From positions 1-64,000 of the forward strand of contig WGMU01000090.1 in NCBI GenBank assembly GCA_016124895.1: a DNA stretch of 64,000 nucleotides, in the 5' to 3' direction. This DNA comes from a bacterium. Its GTDB lineage: Bacteria > Planctomycetota > Planctomycetia > Planctomycetales > Planctomycetaceae. This document shows positions 7,185 through 45,623 of the stretch, one piece after another. The translations under genes and the position numbers were made by a program. The notes under the pieces are model-generated. The model was given only the letters and a program-made list of their open reading frames with translations. It ran no database searches and had not been told where the DNA came from. Each line of letters begins with the position of its first letter. Position 1 is the stretch's first letter.

Positions 7185-8087
7185 ATGGACATCATCTACC
7201 GCTACGACCCGTTTGCTCCGATCGAGATGCCGAAGATCCCCGACGTCGCGTCCGCGATGAGCCGGCTGGTCGAAGGCAATGACCGCTTCGTCGAGATCGT
7301 GACACAGATGCAGGCACGCACGCTGGGGCAGCACAAGGGGGAGCCGATGGTGATTCCGGTGAACCCGGTGACACTCGGCCTGCCGTTGTTTGAGGGAGTG
7401 ATGCCAACGCAGGCACCGTTTGCCGCGATTGTCGGCTGTGCCGATGCCCGCGTGCCGACGGAAGCGATCTTTGACGAATCGTTCAATAGCCTGTTCGTGC
7501 TGAGGATCGCTGGCAACGTGCTCGGCACGGAAGGTATTGGCTCACTGCACTACGCGCTGGCAAATCTCGGCGAAAGCCTGCGGACCGTGATGATTCTTGG
7601 TCACGCGAAGTGCGGAGCTGTCACGGCGGCCGTCGACGCGTACCTCTCGCCGGAAGCCTACGTCGACATCGCCTCGACGCACGGACTGCGGACGATCGTC
7701 GACGGCATCCAGATCGCCGTTCGCGGAGCTGCCCGGGCACTCACGATCCACGGCGGCAGCCAGATCGAATCAAGCCCCGACTACCGCTCACTGCTGGTTG
7801 CAACGTCGGTTTACGTCAATGCGGCGGTCTCGGCGCTGGAACTGCAGCGCGAATTCAACGGCTTCGTTGAGCACGCTCCGGCCGTCAACTTCAGCGTCTA
7901 CGACTTCGAGTCCCTGCGCATCCAGTGCCTGCCGACCGACGGCGAGAGTGTCAACGTTTCCCGCTATCTGCCCGCTCCGAACTCCGCTGACGACCTGTTT
8001 CAGTACGCCAGCGATGTCGCCAAAGCCTTCCTCACCCTCGACGAAGAAGCCCTCGACCGCAACTGCCGCCTGACGGTCAAGCTGTGA
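7185..8087 (+). CDS. Beta-class carbonic anhydrase
   Basis: The enzyme interconverts CO2 and bicarbonate, probably in the cytoplasm since no signal peptide is seen. The zinc ligands and dyad of the beta class are visible: Cys85, Asp87 and Arg89 in GCADAR, then His140 and Cys143 in GHAKCG. The typical core between them, LFVLRIAGNV and GSLHYAL, is intact. At 300 residues it is longer than the usual 200-230. The extra length is an N-terminal lead of about 80 residues and a C-terminal segment after about 230, ending in a helical stretch, so it belongs to an extended branch of the family. The preceding gap contains repeat copy A. Nothing in the neighbourhood ties it to a carboxysome or to cyanate use. 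Confidence 0.9.
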   Translation: MDIIYRYDPFAPIEMPKIPDVASAMSRLVEGNDRFVEIVTQMQARTLGQHKGEPMVIPVNPVTLGLPLFEGVMPTQAPFAAIVGCADARVPTEAIFDESFNSLFVLRIAGNVLGTEGIGSLHYALANLGESLRTVMILGHAKCGAVTAAVDAYLSPEAYVDIASTHGLRTIVDGIQIAVRGAARALTIHGGSQIESSPDYRSLLVATSVYVNAAVSALELQREFNGFVEHAPAVNFSVYDFESLRIQCLPTDGESVNVSRYLPAPNSADDLFQYASDVAKAFLTLDEEALDRNCRLTVKL

Positions 8088-8223
8088 AAGTCGGCTTGTT
8101 GCAGGCTCGCAAAGGCAGAGCCGGTTCGCTTGGTTGACTGAGGCCCTTGTCAATGTCCGGCCGGTGTAGACCCGCTCTACTTCACATAACCATAGAGGCC
8201 AGACAAGTCACAGACGTGAATCA

Positions 8224-8742
8224 TTAATGTTCGTCTAGCCATTTCGAACAGTCATGCGCGTAAAGCCATCCATAAACAAAGCCCAGCGACGCAAGGGAAA
8301 CAAAGACGACGATTTGCAATGTTACGTCGCCTTTGGAGCTTGGATTGTTTTGCTCCGCAACCTGGAGAGTGAATTCCTGATTACCGACAGTGAAATCTCC
8401 TTGATCCACCCATTCGGTTTTTGGTGACAGATTCTCAGCCACCACACTTCCGAGCACAAAACTCAGCAGCGAGAATCCGATTCCACACAAGATACCCCAT
8501 TTGAAACGAAAGGCCTTACTGTCGGCCTTAATGAAACTCGCGACGAGCCTGGACGGAATCGAACACGCAGCACGTACGAATCTCTTTGTCAATGGGACTT
8601 GTGGGCCAGATGTATCCGTTGGAACCAGAGTTCCAGGGACTTGGATGCGCTGTGAACAGACGCACTCAACTATTGCGCCAGCACGCTTATCGCTGACGTG
8701 AAACTGGCGGCTACATTTCGGGCACCAAAGTTCGATGGACAT
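8224..8742 (-). CDS. Zinc-ribbon membrane hypothetical protein
   Basis: This 172-residue protein begins with a small zinc-binding module (CPKC at residues 7-10, then CVC at 27-29), as found in many planctomycete MJ0042-like zinc-ribbon proteins. After a Pro/Thr linker come two hydrophobic segments, about 85-108 (GILCGIGFSLLSFVLGSVV) and about 142-162 (TLQIVVFVSLASLGFVYGWL). The polar loop between them (ENLSPKTEWVDQGDF) is likely on the far side of the membrane. The function is unknown. Codon use is less GC-biased than in the flanking enzymes, so it may be a lineage-specific or acquired gene. Confidence 0.65.
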   Translation of the reverse strand: MSIELWCPKCSRQFHVSDKRAGAIVECVCSQRIQVPGTLVPTDTSGPQVPLTKRFVRAACSIPSRLVASFIKADSKAFRFKWGILCGIGFSLLSFVLGSVVAENLSPKTEWVDQGDFTVGNQEFTLQVAEQNNPSSKGDVTLQIVVFVSLASLGFVYGWLYAHDCSKWLDEH

Positions 8743-9176
8743 TTCGGACTCGCCTCCACGAACTCAAAAAAGAGTCGTCGGTTGCTGGCCGACGTGTTGG
8801 AGAATCAGCGATTACGTCTGATAATCCCGCCAGTGAGACTCCATTCAGATTGGGGCACGTTTCCAGAATCTACGATCGTCCTCACGGTCAACAGCGTGAC
8901 TCGGTACTCAACTGAACGCCATGGGCGATCCCTCGCCAAAGTGGGCAATGAAAAGCCTGACATCACATTCGACCGGGTCGCAGAGCCGTTCAATACGGAA
9001 CGCATGATTGTCCCTTGAAAATTCAGCCTATCGTCTTAACCGTTGACTCTCAAGATACAACGGGGAGGTCGGCTGGATGCCAGCCAGCAGGCGAGTTCCT
9101 CTTTCTCCCCTCATGCACTACAGAGTCTGCTTACAAACACGGGATACCTGCGTCGAACGTAGCCCAAGCGAGGCAC
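8743..9176. other. Gene-free gap
   Basis: About 430 bp lie between the two minus-strand genes. A 106-codon plus-strand frame crosses it, but it overlaps the start of the zinc-ribbon gene, has no ribosome site and resembles no known family. I see no hairpin terminator or repeat-family copy here. Confidence 0.5.
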
Positions 9177-44320: not shown

Positions 44321-44360
44321 GCGGCGTTACTGTTTTATGCCTGATTCAGGCATTCGCCGC
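44321..44360. terminator. Nested palindrome downstream of HEAT gene
   Basis: ATGCCTGATTCAGGCAT (44337-44353) is a 17-bp palindrome with 8-bp arms about one central base. It is enclosed by GCGGCG (44321-44326) and CGCCGC (44355-44360). It may stop transcription of the HEAT gene or be an operator for the next gene, which starts 97 bases later. There is no T-run. Confidence 0.35.
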
Positions 44361-44456
44361 GTTCATAGATGATATTGATGGGCGGACAACTCGTATCAGT
44401 CGATCTTCGGTTTCGACTATGGATACAGACAAGCTATTTGAAAAGGAGAGCTGGCA

Positions 44457-45623
44457 GTGGCAGACTGCAAACCTAACGCTGAACTGACAAAACTCGCAGC
44501 TGGTTTGACGCGATCTTCGAACATTTACTCGGACGCGCTTGGGCAACTTGCGAAGCACACGTCAAGCATTGATGCAGTTTCCAAGGCCGTTTCGGCCCAA
44601 TTCGATATTGAGCATGGTCTCCTCCGATCGACCGAAGCAGCGCTAAAGCAAATGCGTCTTCTCGACCCGATCTCTCCCAGTATTCAATCCATCGTGTCGG
44701 CAAACGCAAGCTTTACGCGAATGGCCGAACGGCTTGCAAGCATCGAGAATTCTCAAAGTGCGGCGATCAGAAAGATATTTGATGATCACGCGAGAATTCA
44801 AAAAGCGATCGAAGGGATTGGGTTGTCTGGTTCGGTCACTGCGGCGTTCTCTCGGATTGACCCTACGCGTATGTTGTCTGCGTCGCTTGCTGCACAAGCA
44901 AAACTGGCCAACTTCGACAATCTCGTTTTTGGACGTTTGGCCGGCTTGGACGCAGCGTTCAGCCAAGCCATTTCGACGAACTTGGGAAACCTCACTCGCT
45001 CATATCAATCCCTCATTAACGTTGCTGCGACACGTGAGTCGCTCGCATCACGCTTACCGCTGATTACGACATACGTTCCCGTCGAGTACTACCGGGAAGT
45101 CGAGGTCATCGAGACCATTACCGTTGAAGAAGAAGTCGAGGGTGAACACAGTGAGGGACTGATCAGTACGGCGATCGCTGAATCACTGCCGTCAGTTGAC
45201 GACCTTCTTGCCGCGTTTGACAAGCGGCTTATTCGTCTGCTCCATGGTGCGCGTCAGTCTCTTTGCAGTGACAATCCCGATCGTGCAAGGCATGTGACGA
45301 CATCCATGCGCGAGTTATTCACGCAAGTCTTGCACGCGCTTGCTCCAGATGAAGACATTCGGATGTGGACATCGAATGATGACTTCTTTCACGAAAACCG
45401 GCCTACTCGCCGCGCACGATTGCTATACATCTGCCGGCACATCGACTGCGATCCGCTATCACGATTCGTACAAGACGATGTACGTGCTGCACTTTCCTTC
45501 GTTGAATCTTTGAACGCAGGCACCCACGTAGTCGAATCCCGACTGTCAACGGTTCAGCTTTCGTCCATCATTTCACGCATGGAATCCTTGCTCGTATTCC
45601 TCCTGCAGCTACAGAACCAATAG
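44457..45623 (+). CDS. Accessory protein, possibly pPIWI-associating nuclease-like
   Basis: This 388-residue soluble protein starts at a GTG at 44457 with AAAAGGAGAG about ten bases upstream. Residues about 1-210 are mostly amphipathic helices (probably coiled or repeated: SIDAVSKAVSAQF, SIENSQSAAIRKIFDDHAR). A hinge near 205-225 (TTYVPVEYYREVEVIETIT) is strand-rich. The C-terminal domain (about 250-388) has DRARHVTTSMRELFTQVLH, LAPDEDIRMWT, RPTRRARLLYICRHID and a final VESLNAGTHVVESRLS block. That domain recalls, from memory of family sequences, the predicted pPIWI-associating nuclease group found in defence neighbourhoods; this needs a profile search. The gene is visibly AT-richer than its neighbours and stands alone, which suggests acquisition. 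Confidence 0.5.
   Translation: MADCKPNAELTKLAAGLTRSSNIYSDALGQLAKHTSSIDAVSKAVSAQFDIEHGLLRSTEAALKQMRLLDPISPSIQSIVSANASFTRMAERLASIENSQSAAIRKIFDDHARIQKAIEGIGLSGSVTAAFSRIDPTRMLSASLAAQAKLANFDNLVFGRLAGLDAAFSQAISTNLGNLTRSYQSLINVAATRESLASRLPLITTYVPVEYYREVEVIETITVEEEVEGEHSEGLISTAIAESLPSVDDLLAAFDKRLIRLLHGARQSLCSDNPDRARHVTTSMRELFTQVLHALAPDEDIRMWTSNDDFFHENRPTRRARLLYICRHIDCDPLSRFVQDDVRAALSFVESLNAGTHVVESRLSTVQLSSIISRMESLLVFLLQLQNQ

Follow-up and report, generated by a model that had tools for sequence, protein, structure and literature searches.

What is a solitary gene of foreign composition doing amid the housekeeping genes of a planctomycete, and could it be an instrument of defence? The question is raised by positions 44457-45623 of contig WGMU01000090.1, the first 64,000 nucleotides of which form the window, that is, the whole stretch of DNA analysed here. 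An earlier note, made from the letters alone, had proposed a defence or toxin unit, possibly of a single protein, carrying a nuclease domain. We argue that the gene probably encodes a portable cell-shutdown effector, because close relatives sit as the last gene on many unrelated anti-phage systems; as no defence gene adjoins the copy in the window, its own role in defence is inferred from these relatives.

A foreign-looking gene without companions

The reading frame is intact, with 388 codons between a GTG start and a TAG stop. Its immediate surroundings are as follows:

44321..44360, no strand: nested palindrome, 8+1+8 nt within 6-nt arms (sequence reading)
44444..44448, + strand: AGGAG ribosome-binding-like motif, 8 bases upstream of the GTG (direct reading)
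44457..45623, + strand: stand-alone pP_pnuc_1 gene, 388 aa (reading frame with ribosome-binding motif, PF18165 match, GC outlier, 42% identity to a lone Neorhodopirellula gene)

By composition the gene looks foreign. Its GC content is 0.521, against 0.612 +/- 0.014 for the 33 other long reading frames of the window (z -6.7), and its GC3 is 0.54 as compared with 0.72 in the other long frames, which bears out the difference from its neighbours that had first drawn attention to it. It is also truly alone, as had been claimed: it begins 185 bp after the HEAT-repeat gene upstream has ended, the downstream PEMT/ICMT methyltransferase gene is more than 320 bp off, and no credible small partner frame adjoins it. 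Ten flanking genes were checked, and all are of kinds ordinary in planctomycetes (PSD/DUF1552, HEAT, amidohydrolases), with no known defence gene among them; in an attempted empty-site comparison, they proved not to be conserved themselves in relatives. The palindrome that had been noticed ahead of the gene does exist, but there is nothing unusual about it. Because the genome has a single copy of it and shuffled sequences fold about as well (z -1.0), it carries no weight; a mobile-element end or repeat is ruled out on the same grounds, and it is probably incidental, or the terminator of the upstream gene. An Rfam search gave no credible match.

The domain family PF18165, to which the protein belongs, is rare and patchy in Planctomycetota, sparse rather than vertically inherited. 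It is present in three of 99 genomes of relatives and in four of 392 genomes of Planctomycetota, both counts including the window's own genome, and is absent from the only congener examined (a genome 84% complete). The wide distribution with vertical inheritance that the earlier note had set against its own proposal is thus not observed. The nearest relative, L019, is likewise a lone gene, from Neorhodopirellula pilleata, with no defence genes among its neighbours. Identity to it is 42% over 381 aa, reaching 67% in the C-terminal domain and 28% in the N-terminal part, and the gene tree pairs the two with full support, apart from the operonic group described below, other placements being uncertain. 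The MAG taxonomy of relatives was not used; L019, L023 and L030 carry no MAG label. A 399-aa relative from another planctomycete family (L045, genome G083, 7914-9113) has the same layout, with a helical-looking N-terminus, an acidic linker and a C-terminal domain. No relative was found by tblastn in phage records.

The C-terminal domain, its name and its N-terminal companion

Along the gene, the protein divides into three parts, with the invariant residues in the last:

44457..45071, + strand: helical N-terminal region, residues 1-205, presumed sensory or regulatory (AF2, low confidence)
45072..45185, + strand: acidic linker, residues 206-243, net charge -10 (charge count)
45186..45620, + strand: C-terminal HEPN-like domain, residues 244-388, with PF18165 over 258-381 (PF18165, AF2, VIA-align)
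45309..45314, + strand: codons of invariant R285-E286 (22/22 domains)
45408..45410, + strand: codon of invariant R318, in a PTRR motif (22/22 domains)
45525..45527, + strand: codon of invariant H357, at the predicted place of the HEPN catalytic His (22/22 domains; model)

The likeness of the C-terminal domain to the predicted pPIWI-associating nucleases, previously a matter of impression, is confirmed by the Pfam profile search that the earlier note had called for: the domain belongs to PF18165 (pP_pnuc_1, Predicted pPIWI-associating nuclease; E 6.8e-29), with 100.6 bits against a curated cut-off of 26.3 and profile positions 9-132 of 133 covered. The association in the name does not carry over. 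No gene of the Piwi family (PF02171) was matched in the window's genome, while a control genome was matched in the same search, and a Piwi gene is present in only one of 11 relative-bearing records, more than 100 kb from the relative; a pPIWI-RE search for a pAgo partner found nothing, but its control gave no match either. The sole offer of PADLOC is Aga_Nuclease, a pAgo-associated model (E 4.6e-12), which covers the protein partially, over the common domain, and which is matched at full length by another architecture, pP_pnuc_1 followed by pP_pnuc_2 (L014, L035). The name therefore describes another branch of the family. A literature search on PF18165 found no experimental work and no activity data on any member.

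What, then, is this domain? The HEPN superfamily combines a four-to-five-helix fold with a catalytic Rx4-6H motif and metal-independent endoRNase activity, and there are grounds for placing the domain close to it. Predicted alone, it yields a confident AF2 model (pLDDT 91.7, pTM 0.86), which answers the earlier call for a structure prediction. Aligned with the PDB by VIA-align, this model finds HEPN entries in 23 of its 25 best alignments (Z 6.9-8.7 over about 115 residues), among them sacsin 3o10, HepT 6m6w, the AbiA HEPN region 8oz7 and the Parep1-family 2q00; the other two are a de novo design and 3mfn (Z 9.0), a structure without a named function. Foldseek gave no HEPN match to the model at E <0.001, and helical bundles reach middling Z by chance, so that the structural match is support rather than proof: the predicted four-to-five-helix HEPN fold is a likeness of shape only. 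HEPN sequence profiles did not match the protein, a sequence search of solved structures gave no significant match, and the viral structure library gave nothing convincing.

Absence of conserved nuclease residues had also been named as counter-evidence; polar residues turn out to be invariant. R285, E286, L292, R318 and H357 are identical in 22 of 22 divergent domains drawn from four architectures. The model puts H357 at the close of the penultimate helix, a place taken in HEPN RNases by the His of Rx4-6H (in HepT the motif positions are presumably R102 and H107, as read from PDB titles). The segment reads LNAGTH as against the canonical RNxxxH: the His and the Asn after the Arg position are kept, and the Arg is replaced by Leu. 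The catalytic motif is thus incomplete, with R285 and R318 invariant instead. Because the Arg is missing, catalysis is not assured and we call the domain HEPN-like rather than a canonical HEPN RNase; this likeness makes RNA a likelier target than DNA. In HEPN families that have the His and lack the motif Arg, other conserved basic residues may substitute and the proteins are possibly active, and 2q00 similarly keeps the His without the Arg (PMC3710099).

The N-terminal region is all-helical in the low-confidence AF2 prediction, and residues 1-205 match no Pfam family. Its profile is weakly similar to that of the N-termini of operonic relatives (hhalign probability 74, E 2.7e-5), and the acidic stretch is present in relatives too. 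A whole-protein Foldseek search was discarded as meaningless, given the low confidence of this region. In alphaproteobacterial plasmid relatives (L008, L009, L011, L012) the N-terminus differs from that of the window's protein, being a helical stretch of repeats rich in Asn and Arg; in L009 it weakly resembles part of ZorA.

A gene exchanged between defence operons

Full-length relatives (about 385 aa) occur as the last, a late or an inner gene of at least six unrelated types of defence operon:

SIR2-HerA with SbcCD: L020, L034
Type I RM (HsdR-HsdM-HsdS): L021, L031
HsdR + SIR2-HerA: L023
PglZ with helicases: L024, L030
HEC-05/GmrSD: L025, L026, L030
Hachiman HamB: L027
QatA/QatC/TatD: L028, L029

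Across ten of these loci the DNA of the pP_pnuc_1 gene is 83-92% identical. For 40 pairs with differing genes immediately upstream, homology boundaries were taken from BLAST alignments: in 39 of them the alignment starts no more than 30 bp from the ATG, and the lone exception is an alignment of upstream operon DNA common to both. Identity that starts at the start codon between differing operons makes of this gene a gene-sized, exchangeable add-on. Downstream, the common DNA ends near the stop codon or runs on, either into a DUF2188 gene lying closely 3' (seven loci: L020, L025, L027, L028, L030, L033, L034) or into a 461-aa orphan (three loci). In L020 the DUF2188 protein (8466-8699, 77 aa, PF09954 E 2.3e-23) is encoded where DNA conservation continues from the pP_pnuc_1 gene; such a protein may be a partner or antitoxin. 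The orphan (L023:8451-9836, L024:8451-9836, L026:3998-5383) starts about 10 bp past the gene, behind differing upstream systems, and in L023 it matches nothing in Pfam or PADLOC. L029 has neither gene. The relatives are under purifying selection, with Ka/Ks of 0.05-0.3, lower in the C-terminal domain.

Plasmids carry further relatives that are more distant, in which the N-terminus is a different one or pP_pnuc_2 follows at the C-terminus; their neighbours are RM, ABC-three-component (ABC-3C), CBASS, RT and ubiquitin-like genes. At one such plasmid locus, L014:2147-4284, multiubiquitin and ThiF-type genes adjoin a two-domain Aga_Nuclease gene; no Piwi gene was found on that plasmid. The single-protein unit suggested earlier therefore describes this locus and its nearest relative, but not the many relatives that sit within defence operons.

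A probable portable effector and its rivals

Taken at its word, the Pfam name, with the PADLOC match beside it, would make the protein the DNA nuclease of a pAgo (pPIWI) defence system. No Piwi gene, neighbouring or distant, was found in this genome to go with it, the single Piwi gene among the records of relatives is remote, the matching model covers only the common domain, and the predicted fold is HEPN-like, not that of a DNase; we hold this reading to be highly improbable. The DUF2188 gene, closely 3' in L020, L025, L028, L030, L034 and their kin, suggests rather a toxin paired with a small antitoxin. DUF2188 is absent from the window's whole genome, the window offers no partner frame, and elsewhere the 461-aa gene, or neither, takes its place, all of which makes such a pair quite unlikely here. 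An orphan gene, domesticated or in decay and without a part in defence at present, would account for the lone position amid housekeeping genes. It accords poorly with an intact frame, with the 67% identity of the C-terminal domain to that of L019, with purifying selection among relatives and with foreign composition, and we regard it as very unlikely.

There is more to be said for a HEPN-like domain that is not catalytic and whose binding of RNA or of a partner protein would regulate or inhibit a neighbouring defence system or translation. Replacement of the motif Arg by Leu or Phe favours it, and RNA binding is the supposed role of HEPN families without the motif, MtlR for example (PMC3710099). 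Strict conservation of Arg, Glu, Arg and His in 22 divergent domains exceeds the needs of mere binding, and the argument that Arg-less families with the His and other basic residues may be active applies here as well (PMC3710099). We consider this reading rather unlikely.

The reading we prefer is a horizontally acquired, single-gene anti-phage effector combining N-terminal sensing, RNA cutting by the HEPN-like domain and abortive infection; in this full form we give it even chances. A conserved, effector-like domain, a fast N-terminus, an interchangeable place in operons and stand-alone copies together fit a portable abortive-infection effector. The fast-evolving helical N-terminus would sense, or be released by, an infection signal, upon which the C-terminal domain would cut RNA and arrest the cell. 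In other bacteria, where such a gene lies at the 3' end of unrelated defence operons or close to it, it would provide a second line of defence, and the copy in the window would work alone, with no operon. More tentatively, and below even chances, the family as a whole may be a system-agnostic module, moving with start-codon precision onto the ends of unrelated defence operons as a common RNA-cutting backup and also surviving alone with its own N-terminal sensing. A near-identical gene, homologous from its start codon and exchanged among at least six unrelated defence systems, suggests that defence operons have interchangeable effector parts in common. The Pfam family PF18165 gains a predicted fold and a candidate active site open to testing, and the 'pPIWI' of its name is shown to mislead.

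Known HEPN RNases include toxins as well as add-ons of RM and CRISPR loci. With pP_pnuc_1 the protein shares its C-terminal domain over nearly the full profile, and it differs in having no Piwi partner and none of the pP_pnuc_2 that the two-domain Aga_Nuclease form carries. HepT and other HEPN toxins, like the HEPN domain of AbiA, resemble it in predicted fold and in the modelled position of the motif His; it differs from them in lacking an MNT antitoxin, an RT domain and the motif Arg. The Parep1/8 HEPN-T family (PDB 2q00) comes near in fold (Z 8.5) and in an R-less motif with the His kept, but it is archaeal and of other context, the likeness being one of structure. PrrC, the HEPN anticodon nuclease of a type I RM locus, differs in its ABC ATPase part and N-terminus, whereas the window's family is joined to many other systems and the window copy stands alone; what the two have in common is a HEPN-like effector accompanying RM genes, as in L021 and L031, and the logic of a second line of defence.
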